Assembly (NCBI GenBank): GCA_944372525.1
Contig: CALVZL010000035.1
Location: 1 to 43,227, forward strand
Direction: 5' to 3'
DNA: 43,227 bases
Origin: an uncultured Clostridia bacterium
GTDB taxonomy: Bacteria; Bacillota; Clostridia; Christensenellales; Borkfalkiaceae
Every line of letters starts with the position of its first letter. Positions within the stretch are counted from its first letter, which is position 1. The translations under genes were made by a program, and so were the position numbers. The notes beneath the pieces were generated by a model, which saw only the letters and a list, made by a program, of their open reading frames with translations, made no database searches and was not told the DNA's origin. Below are positions 1-9,560 of this stretch, in pieces.

Positions 1-531
1 ATAGCGATACCTATATATGTCTATAAAAGGCAGATAATTTTCTTTTTGATAATCTTCCTTCCTCGGCAAATATCCGTGAGAATCGAAAAACGTTTCCAAT
101 CCGTCGCTGATATTCTTCTCGTTCCATTTTGTCAGCGGATATTCTGACAGAATATCGCGGAGCTTCCCAGCGGTTTCATCGTCCTCTGCCGCAACTTCGA
201 TAGCCGTTTCCAACGCCTGCCGAATCGTGACGGACGGCTTATAATATGTAGGGAAGTTCCGCTCCATCCATTCGTGTGCAGTCATCTTGAACAGATACGG
301 AAAGAGCGCGTGCGCGGGCATTCCGTCTTTCACCTTGAAATCTGTAACTGAGGGCAATCTTCCGTGATCGCTCATAAATTGCTCCACACAGTCGCGGACT
401 GTTCCTTCGCTCCACTTCACGAAAGGCATTGCGTCTGCTATTTCAGTGAGCTTTGCGACAAGATCCTCATTTTGCCCTTTCTGAGCCCGAATTTTCAAAA
501 TCGCCTTGAAAATTGCCTGTTTTCGCGTCAT
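1..531 (-). other. HNR-like repeat segment with its own internal start, inserted in sigG (3'-partial)
   Basis: Within the fused frame, codon 109 is an ATG at 529-531 preceded by AAAAGGGG and a 5-nt spacer, so this segment could be translated alone as the inserted element's own gene. It begins MTRKQAIFKAIL and holds two roughly 95-100-residue units. Each has an RQA-type helix followed by KWSE or KWNE, then HGRLP or HGYLP. Such repeats are known as DNA-binding accessory modules of homing endonucleases and phage proteins. No nuclease motif (HNH, GIY-YIG or LAGLIDADG) appears in the visible part; one could lie beyond the left edge. Function is not assigned. Confidence 0.55.
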
Positions 532-855
532 AAATACCCCTTTTCGGGTATTTCGACGTCCTAACGTCTTCGGAACGGCATATGTGGAAAATTTTACGTT
601 GAATTTCAGATCAAAGTGATCGATCGCTTTGATCAAACCCAAACACCCCGCCTGAAACACATCGTCGGCATTGGCATTCTTTGCCCAAAACCGTTTGACA
701 AGAGAGAGAACAAGACGCATGTTTCCCACAATGAATTTTTCTCTCGCTTTGCGGTCTCCCTGTTTGAGCGCACGCATCAGCGCATCGTTCTCCTCCGCAG
801 AAAACTTCGGCAGACCGGACGTATCGACCCCGCATATCACGACCTTTTGCAGCAT
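1..855 (-). CDS. sigG: Sporulation sigma-G N-terminal part fused in frame to HNR-like repeats (interrupted sigG, 3'-partial)
   Basis: Residues 1-95 are a clear SigG start: the VICGVDTSGLP signature at 6-16, then the conserved region-2 blocks GNMRLVLSLVKRF and FNVKFSTYAVP. SigG is the late forespore sigma factor. At residue 96, where SigG normally reads MIIGEIRRYLRD, the sequence becomes KTLGRRNTRKGVF and continues in the same frame, with no stop to the window edge, into two repeats of the form KWxExxIxDxLExFxxxHGxLPxxxD (about residues 143-175 and 238-270). These resemble the homing-endonuclease-associated repeat (HNR/HNH_repeat family). Sigma regions 2.4, 3 and 4 are absent from the window. 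The start ATG at 853-855 has GGAGGTGAAGC upstream, and spoIIGA-sigE precede it, which is the normal sigG location. As read, the product cannot be a working SigG. It may be a skin-like element, an intron with its ORF in frame with the exon, or a decayed gene. The SigG identity is firm; the HNR assignment is moderate. Confidence 0.85.
   Translation of the reverse strand, partial: MLQKVVICGVDTSGLPKFSAEENDALMRALKQGDRKAREKFIVGNMRLVLSLVKRFWAKNANADDVFQAGCLGLIKAIDHFDLKFNVKFSTYAVPKTLGRRNTRKGVFMTRKQAIFKAILKIRAQKGQNEDLVAKLTEIADAMPFVKWSEGTVRDCVEQFMSDHGRLPSVTDFKVKDGMPAHALFPYLFKMTAHEWMERNFPTYYKPSVTIRQALETAIEVAAEDDETAGKLRDILSEYPLTKWNEKNISDGLETFFDSHGYLPRKEDYQKENYLPFIDIYRYRY
532..568. repeat. Two adjacent inverted repeats at the sigG breakpoint
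   Basis: AAATACCC (532-539) and GGGTATTT (546-553) form a perfect 8-bp stem with a 6-nt loop. GACGT (555-559) and ACGTC (564-568) form a second stem with a 4-nt loop. They fill the short gap between the last sigma-G codon (571-573) and the internal ATG of the inserted segment. On the minus strand the first hairpin would bury the AAAAGGGG ribosome binding site of that ATG. Paired palindromes at a breakpoint suggest an element terminus or a structured intron 5' end, but only one junction is visible. Confidence 0.6.
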
Positions 856-1031
856 GCTTCACCTCCGTTATGTAACTGCGCGAAAACAGTATCGGCAAAG
901 CAATAAAATCAATACGCGTCGCGGGAAGATAAGAAGGTTTTCGATCAAAGGCCGCTCTGCACATCCTTTCGACGGCAACTCACAGCTCGCTCTTGCGCAA
1001 ATATCGGTCTCGTCCTTTTCCCCATAAGAAG
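856..1031 (-). promoter_or_regulatory. sigG leader with a possible forespore-type promoter
   Basis: This 176-bp gap between sigE and sigG holds no gene. Read on the minus strand, a GTATT motif is followed about 16 nt later by CGATACTG, loosely like the -35/-10 pattern of SigF/SigG promoters that normally drive sigG. The match is weak and was found by eye. GGAGGTGAAGC directly before the ATG is the sigG ribosome binding site. No terminator is evident after sigE, so read-through from spoIIGA-sigE is also possible. Confidence 0.3.
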
Positions 1032-1742
1032 TCAAACCATTTTGGAAATCTCTTTTTTCAGCCGCTGTATAATCTTTTTTTCCAATCGGGATATATAGCT
1101 TTGTGAAATCCCGAGCCGATCCGCCACATCTTTCTGCGTCATCTCTTCACAGCCGCCCAATCCGAACCGCATAAACATAATTTTCCGTTCCCGTTCCGAC
1201 AGTTTTTTCAGCGCCTCTTTCAGAAGTTCTTTTTCCACGCTGTTTTCAATATCGCCGTAAACCGCATCATTGTCTGTCCCGAGAATATCCGAAAGCAACA
1301 GCTCGTTTCCCTCAAAATCCGTATTAAGCGGTTCGTCGAAAGAAACCTCGCTCTTGAGTTTCGCCGTCCGTCGAAGATGCATTAATATCTCGTTTTCAAT
1401 GCAGCGCGAAGCATAAGTTGCCAGCTTAATGTTTTTTTCCGGACAAAAGGAGTTGATTGCCTTGATGAGTCCGATCGTTCCGATTGAGATCAAATCGTCC
1501 GTATCCACGCCTGTATTTTCAAATTTATGCGAGATATAGACCACCAGCCGTAAATTGTGTTCGATCAGACGCGCCTTGATCTCCTCAGCATTTTCCCCGT
1601 TTTCAAGCTTTCTAAGCATCTCCTTCTCTTCGTCTGCCGTAAGCGGTAACGGAAGCGCTTCGCTTCCGCTGAGATAATGAACAACGTTTTTCTTTATTCT
1701 GAATTTTTCCAGCCAAATCTTTAGTCTCGTCAAAATATTCAT
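1032..1742 (-). CDS. sigE: RNA polymerase sporulation-specific sigma factor E
   Basis: This 236-residue sigma-70 family protein is the first mother-cell sigma factor of sporulation. The N-terminal 25-30 residues are an amphipathic pro-sequence ending in [11 protein letters not shown] (23-33), matching the pro-sigma-E segment cut by SpoIIGA. Region 2 carries [30 protein letters not shown] and [15 protein letters not shown]. Region 4 has the helix-turn-helix [21 protein letters not shown]. Length and sequence fit the family closely. The ATG at 1740-1742 has GGAGGGACTTT upstream. That site lies inside the spoIIGA frame, which runs 131 nt into this gene, so translation of the two is probably coupled. 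Confidence 0.97.
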
Positions 1743-2969: not shown

Positions 2970-3046
2970 GCGCTGTTAGCTCAATTGGATAGAGCGTTGG
3001 TCTACGGAACCAAAGGCTAGGGATTCGAGTTCCTTACGGCGCACCA
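2970..3046 (+). tRNA. tRNA-Arg (anticodon ACG)
   Basis: The 77-nt cloverleaf includes an encoded 3' CCA. The acceptor strands GCGCTGT and ACGGCGC pair with one G-T wobble. The D arm contains TAGCTCAATTGGATAGAGC. The anticodon stem TTGGT/ACCAA encloses the loop CT-ACG-GA with the anticodon at 3004-3006. The T loop has GGATTCGAGTTCC. The first anticodon A would be edited to inosine to read CGU, CGC and CGA. It has its own promoter and terminator and stands alone. Confidence 0.97.
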
Positions 3047-3577: not shown

Positions 3578-5344
3578 TTAAATTTTGGATAAGTTTCCGT
3601 CGGTGCATCTGATTGTATAATAGCCGGTATTGCTGTTCCAATCAGTGTCTTTAACGATTTCTAACCACTGCGTCTTTGTCCCGCCAAATTCAATCGTAGT
3701 AAGATAAATACAGCCGCAAAACGCACTGTTGCCTATGATTTTTACGTTTTCGCTTATTGTAATGCGGCATATCTTAGGAGCGTTTATGCCGCCGACATTG
3801 AAAAGACGAGCAGGAATTTTTAAGACATCATCGCCAAAGGTAACTTCAATACCGTCGCCGTCTTTGCCTGCGTTGTAGAAGGGAAAGCTGTTATTTGGAA
3901 TATCGTTTACCGATACCGCATTAAATATGATTTCCGCAAGATTGTTACAGTTATAAAATGCCCTATATCCTATGTCCTTCACATTGTTGCCTATCAGAAC
4001 TTGTTTAAGGTTTTGACAGTTTGCAAAAGCCTGATCTCCTATGCTCGTTAAACCGTTCCCCGTGTTGACGGAAATGAGGTTTGCCTCTTTATCGTTATGT
4101 CTGAACATATATGCGGGTATTCTTTCTACATCGTCGCCGAAAATAAGTTCAATGCCTTCGCTTGCTGTGCCTGCATTTTCGAAAGTGAAAGCAATCATGC
4201 TGAAATCATCGACCGATTTTGCGTTCCATTGAATTTTTTTCAAAGCGGTACAATCCATAAACGTTTCAGACCCTATAAGTGTAACCTTTTCGGGAATGAT
4301 TATGGAGGTAAGTGAGGTGCAGCCGTTAAAAGCTCCGCCCGCAATACTTTGAAGGTTATTCGGTAAATCTATTTCGGTCAGCGAGAAGCAGTTTTTAAAT
4401 GCGCTGCCGCCGATTCGGACAATGCTTTCCGGCAATTCGACGGAATGTAGGTTGTAAGAATAGAGAAAAGCATTGCTTTCAATTTCTTCACCGTCGGTGA
4501 TGACTACACTTTCAAGCGAGGTTTTGGGAATGTATTTCGCCGCATAAGCGGGAATTGTTGCAGTTACTATATTGTGGCATCCTTCAAAGGAACTGTCACT
4601 TATCTCGATTTTTATTTGGCTTGCGGATATGGTTAACGAGTTGAGTGCGGTACAATCTTTAAAAGCATTGAATTCTATACACGTAATATTTTGAGGGATA
4701 GTAAGAGAAGTCAATCTCGTGCAGTCGGAAAAAGCCCCGCCGCCTAAAAGCTCAACACCGTTTCCAAGCGACAGCGATGTTATGCTGTTGCAATTAGCAA
4801 AAGCCATTCCTCCTATTGAGGTAACGGAGTTTGGAATTGTAACGGAAGCGAGCGAAGTGCACCCATAAAATACATTGCTTGAAATGCTTCTAAGACTTTC
4901 CGGGAGTGTAATAGTTGTGAGCCCCGTACAATTTGCGAATGCGCCATGTTCCATGTCCTCAACGCCGTAAGGAATCGTGATGGAAGAAAGATTTGTGCAG
5001 CCGCTAAAAGATTGCTTGCCTATTGTTTTCAGAGTATTAGGTAAAATTACAGACAGAATTTCAGTATTGTTTTCAAAAGCCGATTCACCTATTTTCAGAA
5101 CGGGCAATTCACTATATTCAGAAGGAACGGATAGGTTTTCTTCGTATCCGTCATAACCTGCAACCGAATAATATTTCTCATCTTCACTTAAATGAAGAAT
5201 AAATCCGTCAACATTGGCAATGGCTTCTTTTTTTTCGCTTTCGGCGGGGTCTTTGATGTTGTTTCCCGCACCGCATCCAAACAGCATCCCTGCCGATAAT
5301 AGACAACCTGAAATTGCAAGAACAGAATATATAATTTTTTTCAT
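3578..5344 (-). CDS. BspA-type leucine-rich-repeat surface lipoprotein
   Basis: This 588-residue protein has a lipoprotein signal peptide (KK, a hydrophobic core, then LFGC with Cys24). A run of about 20-25-residue BspA/LRR_5 repeats follows, of the kind xxFxxCxxLxxIxIPxxVxxIG, for example FSGCTNLSSITIPYGV and FYGCTSLASVTIPNSV, and fills residues 70 to the end. This class is exported and often binds host proteins or other cells, but the ligand cannot be read from the sequence. Base composition is clearly more AT-rich than the next LRR gene, and the gene sits just beyond a tRNA, which suggests acquisition by transfer. The ribosome binding site is weak (GGGGCTTAA before the ATG at 5342-5344). 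It is probably transcribed separately from its neighbours. Confidence 0.85.
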   Translation of the reverse strand: MKKIIYSVLAISGCLLSAGMLFGCGAGNNIKDPAESEKKEAIANVDGFILHLSEDEKYYSVAGYDGYEENLSVPSEYSELPVLKIGESAFENNTEILSVILPNTLKTIGKQSFSGCTNLSSITIPYGVEDMEHGAFANCTGLTTITLPESLRSISSNVFYGCTSLASVTIPNSVTSIGGMAFANCNSITSLSLGNGVELLGGGAFSDCTRLTSLTIPQNITCIEFNAFKDCTALNSLTISASQIKIEISDSSFEGCHNIVTATIPAYAAKYIPKTSLESVVITDGEEIESNAFLYSYNLHSVELPESIVRIGGSAFKNCFSLTEIDLPNNLQSIAGGAFNGCTSLTSIIIPEKVTLIGSETFMDCTALKKIQWNAKSVDDFSMIAFTFENAGTASEGIELIFGDDVERIPAYMFRHNDKEANLISVNTGNGLTSIGDQAFANCQNLKQVLIGNNVKDIGYRAFYNCNNLAEIIFNAVSVNDIPNNSFPFYNAGKDGDGIEVTFGDDVLKIPARLFNVGGINAPKICRITISENVKIIGNSAFCGCIYLTTIEFGGTKTQWLEIVKDTDWNSNTGYYTIRCTDGNLSKI

Positions 5345-5435
5345 TTAAGCCCCGATTTATAAAAATATCATTTGTTTTTATTTGTTTTTATATTGTCGTT
5401 AATATATGATAATTTTAAATGATTATATCAAGAAG

Positions 5436-8400
5436 TTAAGTCTCGCTGTCCACAACAAAGAAATTTCCTTTGAGATGGAAGGTTACCGTCTTGCCCGTCG
5501 CATTGCTGTGGAAGGTATAATAAGTAGTTCCGCCGATCACGACCGTCATGTACTCGGCGACCTCCGGCTGTGCGCCGGAGATATTCGCATTGGAAACCCA
5601 AAGCGTGTTTTCCCCGTAATCGAGATTGATCCGCTGATAAGCGTTCGCCGCAGAAGAGCTGCTGTCCGCATAATAGAAATAAGACTCAGACACACTGAAT
5701 ACCCTTCGGCTCGCATCAAAATAATTTTGGACCGAAAGTTTCACGCTGGTTCCTTCGTTTACAGAGGTCTTATAAATGCTAAACGAAGTCTTATTCAGAT
5801 TCCAGCCGACCGAACCCAAGTAGAAACAGGTATAGCTTCCCTTCTTTGCAATGCCGACTTGGGTGAGTTCGGAGTCAAACCATGTAAAGAAATAAACGTC
5901 GGACCCGTAGTTGAACCGTTGCGTTCCCGCATAATTCAACGCATCGTTCTCCAAAATATACTCATATGTACCGTCCTGATTTACGGTCACTGTCGCATAG
6001 AAACGGATAGATTCCGTCGCTGAAGTATTAATCTGCACAGGGAAGACATTGCTTGAAACAGAATTGATCCGTACAAACGTAATCGGATTGCCCTCCGTAG
6101 AGAAATAGAAATACTGGTCGGAATTGCTGACATGGACGATCGCAAGCCTGTCTTGATACCCTCCGGATTGTCTGATATAATAGATAATGGGGATTTCCTG
6201 CATCTCTCCGATTTTGGAGTCCCTGCTCAGTCCGAAATAAACATCGTCGGATCCAATGCGACAGACGAACTGACCGATTCCGTTTGCCAAGTCAATCGAG
6301 CCGCTTCCCTCTGCCGCCTCGCCTTCCGAAAGTGAAGTACGCAGCTCTCCGGTCATGCTGTCAAACTCATATTGTCCGCTGTAATATACACCTTCCCGAT
6401 AGAAGAGCCAATTCTCCGTGCCGTCAAAATAGACACAATCGTCAGGCGAGCTCGTCACATAATATTTGCCCGCCTCCGCCGTCTGCGAAACGGAGACGAT
6501 CGCAAATGTCTTTTCTTCCGTCTGCAAATATATGATCTTGTATTCGTCTTCCGAAATCAAGAGCAAGTTCGTGCTCTCCCCGAAGAATACGAACTGCATC
6601 GACACGCCGTTCAGTTTTGCCGTGAAATAGCCGTCCAGCACAAGACGATCCGATCCGCCGGTAAACACCCCCGCGATTCCGGAAGCAACAACGTCGAAGT
6701 GCATCGTTTTCCCTTCATAATCTCCCTGCAACAATCCGTTCTGCGAAATGCAGGAATACCCCCAGAAAACTTCCGAACCGTTCAGAAGGAACGAGATGGA
6801 AGTATCATGCAGCAGATAGCCCGCCGTGATGACGGACTCCCCGGAGACAAGCGTCAATTTTCCGTCATACACCGTGCCCGCTTCCGAATAAGACTGTCCG
6901 TCCAGTTTGACATATGCCGCATTATTCAAATCGTAATAAACACCGGCTTCTTCGCCGATTTGAGAGTAGGCGCTTTCCCCGATTTCAAGCACCGCCCCCG
7001 CCGACTCGGAGGAAGCCCGAAAAATCGCAGAAGAAATGCCGTCGATTCCCTCGATCGTGAGAATGCCCTCCTCGGAAATGGAATATTTTCCGATCTTTGT
7101 CCCTTCATTGAGGAAATGCACCACGATATTTCCCGCTCCGTCCAGTTTTACAACGACAGTATCCAGCGACCCGTATGCCCCCGCCTCCGCGCCGCGTACA
7201 ACGAGGGACTGCGAATCGGCCGCAAAGCAACCAAAAAGGGAAAACTCAGAGGGATGCGAAACGCCTTCGGCTGCATAGTACACCGTAATTTTTTTCAATT
7301 CGGAATCACCGTCATATCCGGGAACCGCATCGTAGCAGAGCCAACCCCCGCCTTCAAATCCGCTTTCTTCCGAAAACCGGACAAGGGCATATCCGTTCGT
7401 CGTTCCGCGCATGGTAATTATCCCGAAACCGGTTTGATACTGTGTTCCCCGCGCAAAAGGCCCCTCGGTCACGAGCTGACGGAAGTCAGAAAGAGAATAG
7501 TTTACGGGAACTTTCCCATTCATAGCCAAATTCTCAAGATCGGAAAGGCTCTCCTCAAATGCGTCGAGAAAGGGCTGACATTCCGGACTGATCCAGCCGC
7601 TTCCGCTCCATTCCTCTTTTGCGGAAAGCGGAGTCCAAACCTTCTGCTCTTCCGAAGTGCTGTCGTTATTGTTAAGCAAAACGGGATAGATCACACCTTT
7701 TTCTTCATAACAAAAGGCGCCGCTTCCCACAGTCGGAGCGATTTCTCCGCGGAAAATAAGCTCCGTAAGGTACTTTTGTCCGCCAAAAGCGCCTGCTCCG
7801 ATCTCCAAAATCCCCGTACCGAAAGAAACACCCAACAAAGTCCCTTGTGAAAAGGCTTTTGCGCCGATTTTTTGAAGTCCGTCCCCGAATTGTACAAATC
7901 GGAGAGACTGATTGCCGCAAACGGCGCCGTCTGCAACTTCCACGACCTCTTCCGGTACTTCATAGACGATCCCGGATCCCTGATAATCGTAAAGTACGCC
8001 TCCCTCTATCGTCTGACCGTTTTCGTCCGCAGAAAGCAGCCTGACGGTGAAGCGCTCCCCGTCAAAGAGTACGGTGACGCGGGATCCGTCTTCCGAAATC
8101 TCATACGCGTGGGAATACCCGTATTGGGTTGCAGGAACGATCTCGGACTCGCGCAGCAAAAATGCGCGATCTCCCATACCAAGATAGGCATTGAACGATT
8201 CTCCGCGATAAATTCCGTTCCCGGAAACAGCTTTTGCGTGACGCTCCCCCGAAAGCACGTTGATCTGCAGATTCTGCGAAGAAACGGAAAGTTTCCCCGC
8301 GATCTTTTCCGTTAACGTTTCACCCGAAGCATCAGCCGCAAAAGCAGAATAGGCATCTTCTGTCGCATACAGAGCAAGAGTCGTCTGAGGAACCCCGAAT

Positions 8401-9464
8401 ACAGAAGCGCCAAGCGCAGGGATTCCTGCTTCAAAGCCGCATTCAGAAAGTGCCGAACAGGAGAACGCCGCGTCTCCGATCTCTTTCACTGCAGCAGGAA
8501 CCGTCACGGATAAGAGCGCGGAATCCCGAAACGCATTGCGGCCAATCTCAAGGGCATTTCCGAGATCAACGACAGTCAGGGCGCTTTTTTCAAAAGCGCT
8601 CTCTCCGATCATGACATAGGTGTCCGAAAAATCGACATATTTCAGACTTTCATTCCCGTAAAAGGCGCCCGTGCCGACAAACAAGACATCTGACTGCGTG
8701 ATCAGTTCACGCGCAGTGAGCGACTGCATTCCTCCTTCGGCAATCCTGACGACTTCCATGCCGTTCACCGAGGCTGGAATCGTCACGGAAGCGGGGTACT
8801 CGTAACCGACCACAGCAGAAACTTCCAAAGTCTTTGTCTCACCGATTTCCGTATAGGCAAATCCATTCTCCTCGTAAACAATTTTTTCCCATTTCGCATA
8901 GACAACGGCGTCACCCGCGACGGCGGAGTCAAAATCAAACAGCGTTTCATAGCCGTCGTCTGCATACCAGCCGCTAAAACGATAGCCGTAGCGCGTCGGC
9001 TCTTCCGGCACAAGCGCCGCCTCGCCTTCTCTGACCTGCTGTGTCTCCACCGCGGAGCCGCCGCAACTGTGGAAGGAAACCGTAAAAATTTGAGGATCGA
9101 CGGGAATCAGTTCCCACAGCGCATAGAGCTCAATGCTCTCATTCACAACATCCGTTTCGAAGGAAAATTTTTCCTCATATGAAGAATCCAAGTACCACCC
9201 CTTAAAACGATATCCTTCTCTCACAGGATCGTCCGGGGCGGATACCAAAGCGCCGATCTGCACCAATTGTGCCGTAACACCGGAACCATAGACACTGTTA
9301 AATGAGACAACACAATAATTTTTTACCGAACCAGAACCGTCGGGATCGTTGATATCCCCGTCTCCGTTTTCATCGTTCACCCCGCCGCACCCTGCAATCG
9401 CAAATGCGGAAAGCGCTGCGACCAGCAATCCGGCAATCAGAAAGATCTTTCTCTTTCTCGCCAT
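5436..9464 (-). CDS. Large lipoprotein with InlB-type B-repeats and LRR_5 segments
   Basis: This 1342-residue exported lipoprotein starts MARKRKIFLIAG, with lipobox IAGC and Cys26, then a Gly/Asp-rich linker. Two Listeria-Bacteroides (InlB B-type) repeats at about 51-118 and 126-193 each carry GYRFxGWYxDxxYExxFxF. Two LRR_5 patches follow at roughly 220-380 and 540-620. The remaining 700 residues are beta-rich and Tyr/Gly/Ser-rich with repeated short hairpin-like units (for example GQYEF, GEYEG-type), and I do not recognise a family. The start is the ATG at 9462-9464, placed 7 nt after AGGAGG; an ATG 6 nt upstream lies too close to that site. The gene is likely monocistronic with its own strong promoter. 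A role in cell-surface adhesion or glycan binding is plausible, but the ligand is unknown. Confidence 0.85.
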   Translation of the reverse strand: MARKRKIFLIAGLLVAALSAFAIAGCGGVNDENGDGDINDPDGSGSVKNYCVVSFNSVYGSGVTAQLVQIGALVSAPDDPVREGYRFKGWYLDSSYEEKFSFETDVVNESIELYALWELIPVDPQIFTVSFHSCGGSAVETQQVREGEAALVPEEPTRYGYRFSGWYADDGYETLFDFDSAVAGDAVVYAKWEKIVYEENGFAYTEIGETKTLEVSAVVGYEYPASVTIPASVNGMEVVRIAEGGMQSLTARELITQSDVLFVGTGAFYGNESLKYVDFSDTYVMIGESAFEKSALTVVDLGNALEIGRNAFRDSALLSVTVPAAVKEIGDAAFSCSALSECGFEAGIPALGASVFGVPQTTLALYATEDAYSAFAADASGETLTEKIAGKLSVSSQNLQINVLSGERHAKAVSGNGIYRGESFNAYLGMGDRAFLLRESEIVPATQYGYSHAYEISEDGSRVTVLFDGERFTVRLLSADENGQTIEGGVLYDYQGSGIVYEVPEEVVEVADGAVCGNQSLRFVQFGDGLQKIGAKAFSQGTLLGVSFGTGILEIGAGAFGGQKYLTELIFRGEIAPTVGSGAFCYEEKGVIYPVLLNNNDSTSEEQKVWTPLSAKEEWSGSGWISPECQPFLDAFEESLSDLENLAMNGKVPVNYSLSDFRQLVTEGPFARGTQYQTGFGIITMRGTTNGYALVRFSEESGFEGGGWLCYDAVPGYDGDSELKKITVYYAAEGVSHPSEFSLFGCFAADSQSLVVRGAEAGAYGSLDTVVVKLDGAGNIVVHFLNEGTKIGKYSISEEGILTIEGIDGISSAIFRASSESAGAVLEIGESAYSQIGEEAGVYYDLNNAAYVKLDGQSYSEAGTVYDGKLTLVSGESVITAGYLLHDTSISFLLNGSEVFWGYSCISQNGLLQGDYEGKTMHFDVVASGIAGVFTGGSDRLVLDGYFTAKLNGVSMQFVFFGESTNLLLISEDEYKIIYLQTEEKTFAIVSVSQTAEAGKYYVTSSPDDCVYFDGTENWLFYREGVYYSGQYEFDSMTGELRTSLSEGEAAEGSGSIDLANGIGQFVCRIGSDDVYFGLSRDSKIGEMQEIPIIYYIRQSGGYQDRLAIVHVSNSDQYFYFSTEGNPITFVRINSVSSNVFPVQINTSATESIRFYATVTVNQDGTYEYILENDALNYAGTQRFNYGSDVYFFTWFDSELTQVGIAKKGSYTCFYLGSVGWNLNKTSFSIYKTSVNEGTSVKLSVQNYFDASRRVFSVSESYFYYADSSSSAANAYQRINLDYGENTLWVSNANISGAQPEVAEYMTVVIGGTTYYTFHSNATGKTVTFHLKGNFFVVDSET

Positions 9465-9531
9465 AACCATTCCTCCTTTGTATATTGATGATAAAACAAT
9501 AGCAAATTCCGCTTTTGGGCGGTAGAGCCAC

Positions 9532-9560
9532 ATTATAGCATTTTCATTTTGCGGCGTCAA
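9532..9560 (-). promoter_or_regulatory. Promoter of the 1342-residue lipoprotein gene
   Basis: On the minus strand TTGACG (9555-9560) and TATAAT (9532-9537) are separated by 17 bp. The transcript leader is about 60 nt and contains a small CCGC/GCGG hairpin before AGGAGG. Confidence 0.8.

Follow-up and report, generated by a model that had tools for sequence, protein, structure and literature searches.

Intervening elements have been described in sigK, spsM, spoVFB, spoVR and gerE, all of which are described as mother-cell genes (PMC4191935, PMC5595907), and one more has been described in yabG (PMC10747680). Since the mother cell dies, excision of an element there costs nothing. The skin element of C. 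difficile is reported to encode a directionality factor in addition to its recombinase (PMC5025042), and in SPbeta, which lies in spsM, the recombinase SprA and the directionality factor SprB are described as lying at its outer edges, on either side of attP once the prophage is circular, with SprB under sporulation sigma control (PMC4191935, PMC8270828). Because excision is confined to the mother cell, SPbeta is kept in the spore genome (PMC4191935). For the 28.6 kb gin element in gerE of Bacillus cereus ATCC10987, which has three recombinases, excision was shown by experiment (PMC5595907), and for yin the circle and the empty site are reported to coexist in culture (PMC10747680). An intervening element in sigG was not found among the matches listed in the titles and abstract openings of the open-licence literature, although one may exist.

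The window, by which we mean the whole stretch of 43,227 nucleotides analysed here, is contig C35 of genome G000 (an assembly of 1.375 Mb, 88.7% complete), and its sigG gene is interrupted. An earlier, sequence-only reading had recognised sigG codons 1–95 at their normal place beside sigE, and both genes are indeed found there (Table 1). The break within sigG that it reported also stands, as the sigG model match in a profile search of G000 (C35:550–849, model positions 1–102) ends at that point; the continuation it expected, MIIGEIRRYLRD, does not, the sequence reading MILGEIKRYLRD here. Past codon 95 the sigG frame remains open through unrelated DNA down to window position 1, as had been noted; in G015 the frame stops ten codons past the junction with the same element, and the insert ORF has an ATG of its own, preceded by AAAAGGGG, so we regard the in-frame fusion as incidental. 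The half of sigG that had been missing was located by the model search in the same genome, behind element DNA, at C25:100–588 (model positions 91–254). These remaining 162 codons begin 106 bp into contig C25, and the first 105 bp of that contig, upstream of the sigG 3′ part, are insert DNA. The search of G000 found no complete second sigG, which the earlier reading had named as a way for its interpretation to fail.

Since both contig ends of G000 fall within the insert, whose middle is absent from the assembly, the two junctions lie near contig ends, and an assembly or binning artefact might be suspected. However, the identical junction recurs in many genomes, and a single contig of G075 spans both sigG halves and the whole element; the join is therefore not the assembly error at position 571 that had been envisaged, and we consider an artefact extremely improbable. 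The 105 bp of C25 also precede the sigG 3′ part in G015, G017, G040 and G061 (97–100% identity) and in G027 (78%), while five further genomes gave weak matches of 30–40 bp at other places. The same break is present in nine of 103 genomes of the genus, G000 included, and in all ten further family genomes examined for carrying the large serine recombinase (LSR) of the element, which excludes chance. The interruption of sigG in the window is confirmed.

Table 1. Coordinates of features at the interrupted sigG locus of the window.
Feature	Position	Strand	Basis or remark
Left-end ORF ('HNR' protein), first 177 of about 279 residues, own ATG at 531	1..531	-	Contig ends inside ORF
Hairpin-capable AAATACCC-GAAAA-GGGGTATTT, ribosome-binding-like run ahead of ATG 531	532..553	-	By eye
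Attachment-site left arm GAAGACGTTAGGACGTCGAAATACCC	546..571	-	16/24 match with inverted right arm, start of C25 (G000)
attL crossover dinucleotide CC, first two bases of Pro95 codon	572..573	-	Junction comparison
sigG 5′ part, codons 1–95, ending ...FSTYAVP	571..855	-	ORF and sigG model match
Sigma-F/G-like promoter GTATT-N17-GATACT, upstream of sigG	888..915	-	Loose pattern
sigE (context; sigG comes right after)	1032..1742	-	ORF

The comparison covered 103 Gallimonas genomes (61 + 42) and a family set of 398 genomes. Intact sigG, which the sequence-only reading had proposed to seek in relatives, is present as a full ORF in 88 of the 103 (51 + 37). Nine are broken at codon 95 (G000, G015, G017, G037, G038, G040, G061, G072 and G075); just the 3′ part with the element right end was found in G040 and G061, and just the 5′ part with the left end in G072. 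The remaining six comprise four genomes with no sigG among the matches listed (G026, G058, G066 and G100) and two in which it lies at contig ends (G052 and G027). The LSR was detected in five Gallimonas genomes (E ≤ 1e-60) and in 15 of the 398 family genomes (E ≤ 1e-80), which represent four genera and include those five, and every one of the 15 carriers has a broken sigG. Outside Gallimonas, sigG was looked at in the ten LSR carriers, where the 3′ part starts at model positions 84–92 in nine (no such part in G335) and the 5′ part ends at positions 94–102 in eight (none in G106 or G208). In 12 of the 15 carriers a sigG part lies on the contig that holds the LSR, or in G328 a piece of it, the exceptions being G038, G331 and G335; contig ends truncate the LSR in G328 and G335, and G075 alone has the LSR between both sigG parts on a single contig.

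Three Gallimonas loci depart from this arrangement. In G019, for which the genus search gave no LSR match, a complete sigG is accompanied by remains of the element and by an additional sigG 3′ part, 91.5% identical to the first; the order along the locus (L045 2967–8106) is complete sigG, left-end gene relic, an AbiLi-like ATPase with its neighbours, and the second 3′ part, and it looks like a repaired insertion. The two sigG parts of G038 lie 43 kb apart on the same strand of one contig (C1:205121–205423 and C1:248436–248921), with the 3′ part upstream of the 5′ part and the LSR on a different contig, an order that reflects rearrangement or misassembly and that simple excision could not repair. 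In G027, the sigG 5′ part continues past codon 95 up to the contig end, and at L041 5387–6232 an ORF made of an unrelated N-terminal part and an LSR C-terminal part adjoins an extra sigG 3′ part.

To place the crossover, we read 15 left and 19 right junctions, with the G075 right end re-phased by three bases and G027, which is out of phase, left unused. In elements of the G000 type, attL shows a host-dependent base ahead of CC and a constant base after it, and at attR the reverse is seen. Because the host-varying base precedes CC at the left junction only and follows it at the right junction only, the insertion is placed at CC within codon Pro95. Where both ends are available (13 elements), the two arms resemble inverted copies of one another (15–21 of 24 positions) and differ among elements. 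Among ten representatives, an element's own arms match at 17.7 of 24 positions on average, against 13.5 between elements (permutation p ≤ 5e-5), although in G161 and G152 another element's arm outscored the own arm and in G038 there was one tie. The loci therefore display what is expected of LSR elements, namely a short non-palindromic core, inverted attP arms and a constant attB target, along with resolvase, recombinase and zinc-ribbon domains in the G017 protein. They also show the hallmark of sporulation gene-intervening elements, in that joining the host flanks at CC restores an open sigG of 256–260 codons in all 13 elements with both ends, as precise removal requires. The proposal of a mobile element within sigG is thus upheld by a serine recombinase and matching sites at both junctions in relatives. 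A search with one arm set for the excised-circle junction gave no match in the 398 genomes or in IMG/VR; assemblies would rarely hold such a junction. As a by-product, the comparison yields thirteen deduced attachment pairs for LSRs targeting one highly conserved codon.

A self-splicing intron or an intein whose ORF had become joined to the exon upstream would likewise continue in frame, and one homologue of the insert protein weakly resembles homing-endonuclease repeats. The 'HNR-like' resemblance named by the sequence-only reading is weak: the Pfam family PF18780 (HNH_repeat) matches the G015 homologue with E = 0.005 and 17.6 bits, short of the 26-bit cut-off, and gives no match to the window protein at E ≤ 0.01. 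The suggested intron found no backing in Rfam, no intron model matching at gathering threshold in the window or in locus L001, which cover the insert ends, the middle being absent from the assembly. Moreover, the fusion frame is not conserved, the ends look like LSR attachment sites, and in relatives the insert, flanked by paired attachment arms, brings an LSR with cargo ranging from 9 kb to over 15 kb. We regard an intron or intein as the least probable of all the explanations considered. The sole Rfam match in the window and L001 at that threshold was a tRNA, and near the tRNA gene (2970–3043) the window has two large minus-strand ORFs (3578–9560; 588 and 1,374 aa) that look by eye like repeat-rich lipoproteins.

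The content of the element is best seen in G075, where it measures 9,251 bp core to core (by subtraction) and comprises the left-end ORF, an HTH protein, an ECF-like sigma factor, two ORFs, the LSR, a second HTH protein and a TIR/TPR protein. The one of the two intervening ORFs that was scanned has no Pfam match, the HipA-like neighbour of the HTH protein scores 26.3 bits (below the cut-off of 30.5), and an NB-ARC match in the TIR/TPR protein is below threshold. Within this cargo (L059 3134–6827), the TIR/TPR protein and the HTH/HipA-like pair resemble phage-defence and toxin–antitoxin genes. One LSR is seen in this complete element. Ahead of the sigG 3′ part, G015 and G017 carry an LSR (495 and 492 residues, respectively) and a gene for a Fic protein; a PHROG integrase matches the G017 LSR across residues 27–477 (E = 1e-93), and a TnpV-like gene is its neighbour. 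G000 gave no LSR match, which we attribute to the missing middle of its insert. Among the matches listed, the nearest recombinases are 34% identical in phages and 28% in plasmids; IMG/VR holds one relative of the LSR (34% identical), and its PDB sequence matches include the TP901-1, A118 and TnpX proteins. The left end of the element in G161, a member of another genus, has the left-end ORF, a convergent LSR and conjugation genes, one of whose proteins matches the MMCAP2_0566 and ICE_Mbov_0396 conjugation families above the NCBIfam cut-offs, so by its gene content this element appears clearly conjugative. In G075, six ORFs were scanned in addition to the LSR and none was recognised as a conjugation gene, and no phage structural genes were noticed among the few element ORFs scanned. 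Separately, the surroundings of the split sigG in both G017 (L043 1717–3219) and G152 (L095 2199–3692) include an ORF that resembles a Y-family DNA polymerase by eye; in one genome it follows the sigG 3′ part, in the other the left-end gene.

The first 560 nt of the insert are 100% identical between G000 and G111, which belongs to another genus, while the sigG 5′ parts of the two genomes are 71.2% identical; between G000 and G017 the corresponding values are 96.4% and 71.9%. The Fic protein of G111 is likewise 100% identical to that of G017. An insert end identical over 560 nt beside host sigG 5′ parts of about 71% identity indicates that the element has moved recently between genera.

Recent movement bears directly on the most sober alternative, in which the element is a plain parasite that stops host sporulation: it integrates in sigG as a convenient conserved target, dispensable in vegetative growth, and the host lineage loses sporulation unless the element happens to leave. 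The identity of the insert end across genera fits this reading, since after a recent transfer the sigG halves can look intact without any function, and with conjugation genes such as those of G161, horizontal spread alone could maintain the element. Conserved sites, which we defined as those identical in at least 95% of 50 intact sigG genes, have changed slightly more often where the gene is interrupted, at a mean of 1.1 of 65 columns in the 5′ part (seven genomes) against 0.32 in intact genes, and at 2.5 of 106 in the 3′ part (eight genomes) against 0.68. Because the initial intact controls were few or skewed to the best-scoring genes (7 and 20 of 30 recognised by pattern), the final set of 50 also includes 20 intact genes with lower scores. 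The excess, greatest in G038, G061 and G040, is mild and may mean some relaxation. On the other side, the sigG parts stay open, and in the interrupted genomes tested (seven for the 5′ part, eight for the 3′ part) dN is far below dS, with dS near saturation. The complete sigG of G019, a genome without an LSR match, also speaks against permanent loss.

The wider sporulation gene set points in both directions. We take the genus of the window's genome to belong to the Borkfalkiaceae. One paper (PMC11536998) states that cultured bacteria which it places in this family are described as non-spore-forming, and that the paper's own genomes suggest otherwise. SpoIVA was found in 98 of the 103 Gallimonas genomes and in 60 of the 60 among the most complete, from which a sporulation programme appears to be present in the genus. 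In the same search SpoIVA had no match in G000, which suits a parasite, but the other eight of the nine interrupted Gallimonas genomes all keep it. Alpha/beta SASP (PF00269) were found in none of the 103 genomes, Bacillus subtilis being the one control that matched; this too suits a parasite, or else, together with the presence of SpoIVA, perhaps points to spores that lack the common DNA-protecting proteins or to an altered programme. Taken with the constraint on sigG, we consider that a parasite merely abolishing sporulation is possible but rather unlikely.

A motif resembling what we take to be the sigma-F/G consensus lies upstream of sigG in 21 of 34 regions, against 0.24 expected from shuffles (6 of 14 interrupted and 15 of 20 intact genomes); the count leaves aside ten of 30 intact loci whose start the pattern missed and G161, whose upstream region is too short. 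At the right end, an outward TTGCAA-N16-18-TATA[AC]T promoter was found in 6 of 13 elements (0.01 expected), and a looser pattern in 9 of 13 (2.7 expected). Both the upstream-motif pattern and the right-end pattern were written after looking at the sequences. The right-end promoter is of vegetative type and in the circle would read across attP into the left-end gene. From the positions of the two promoters, the left-end gene would be expressed from the circle and, in the integrated state, at the times when sigG is expressed.

The right-end promoter could instead be taken to express the sigG 3′ part, so that SigG would work as two polypeptides. In keeping with this idea, the strong promoter aims at the 3′ part in those six ends, and the 3′ part is an ORF with its own ATG in G000, G015 and G017. 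However, G061 has lost this ATG and G075 lacks it; past the junction, the 5′ part stays open into the insert ORF in certain genomes but soon reaches a stop codon in others; and the promoter would also suit transcription of the left-end gene from the circle. With the start codon of the 3′ part not conserved, we rejected a split sigma factor, which is very unlikely.

The protein encoded at the left end, single copy in G000 and with homologues at the G015, G017 and G111 loci, is encoded directly behind the junction and in the direction of sigG in G000-type elements, G075, G152 and G161. A profile of its tail built from these elements was run on six-frame translations of 26 loci and matched an ORF of 79 residues in the corresponding position of G335 (E = 1e-11) as well as the relic behind the complete sigG of G019 (E = 1e-10), with no other match among the 26 loci at E ≤ 0.05. 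The tail module is accordingly found at the left end of five element types and one relic, two of the six matches falling outside the training set. No such protein turned up behind the junction of G037 (536 nt available), G038, G331 and G334, and the contigs of G328 and G338 end too early for the search. It has no match in PADLOC or NCBIfam, nothing convincing among PDB sequences (best E = 0.14), two weak PHROGs matches for one homologue (best E = 0.0055) and none confirmed of 533 pattern matches in IMG/VR, and a structure predicted from three close sequences reached a poor mean pLDDT of 46. Given a position like that of SprB in SPbeta, and a place directly behind the sigG promoter where the forespore promoter would switch it on when integrated, we guess that it is a candidate directionality factor; the negative search in the four elements above and the poorly predicted fold keep this role a guess.

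The insert is an integrative mobile element of a family that carries an LSR and has its attachment site at the Pro95 codon of sigG. We consider it probable, and the most likely of the explanations, that the LSR, with a directionality factor, would excise it precisely and restore sigG, leaving the host able to sporulate. Counting against this are the circle junction that the search did not find, the upstream motif in just 6 of the 14 interrupted genomes, the mild excess of changes in sigG, the missing SASP genes, the order of the sigG parts in G038 and the negative SpoIVA and LSR searches in G000. While integrated, the sigG forespore promoter would switch on the left-end protein directly behind it; in the circle, the left-end gene would come to lie behind the recurrent vegetative-type promoter from the element's other end. 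Once excised, the element would have to survive in circular form and integrate again; otherwise it would disappear. If sigG is rebuilt by excision, this must happen in the forespore genome or before asymmetric division, since sigG acts in the forespore; excision would then take place in the genome that the spore inherits, unlike that of skin and SPbeta. A more specific version, which we put forward tentatively and think doubtful, is a heritable, self-triggered switch, in which the sigG promoter drives the left-end protein, this induces LSR excision in the forespore, and the circle is carried along and reintegrates after germination. Were this so, the spore would travel with the element as a circle.

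Elements of the TnpX/Tn4451 type, which we take to be LSR integrative and conjugative or mobilisable elements, share with this family the resolvase, recombinase and zinc domains, a TnpV-like neighbour (G017) and conjugation genes (G161), and differ from it in target, which here is sigG, and in recombinase, the nearest ones among the matches listed being just 28–34% identical. Of the described intervening elements, gin (PMC5595907) is alike as a non-phage serine-recombinase element that splits a sporulation regulator gene and has attachment sites at both ends; the differences are that gerE acts in the mother cell, while the gene here is sigG, that the complete element here has one LSR, and that excision here is predicted. 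The skin element of B. subtilis and C. difficile also lies within a sporulation sigma gene, sigK, and encodes its recombinase (PMC5025042), but sigK works in the mother cell and its excision is not inherited, whereas sigG is a forespore gene. The position of the left-end protein resembles that of SprB in SPbeta (PMC8270828), with the difference that the gene needed here acts in the forespore. Like yin in yabG of C. botulinum, which is described as particular to strain V73 and prophage-like (PMC10747680), the present element is a recombinase element splitting a sporulation gene, yet it belongs to a recurrent family that spans genera and has another target. An element in sigG must (i) leave the inherited genome, (ii) sterilise the host's sporulation, or (iii) have a way back, and the natural variants in this family, with an LSR, without an LSR and complete again, or never interrupted, allow testing which of these holds. 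Relative to elements of the skin and gin type, excision from the spore's own genome would be new.
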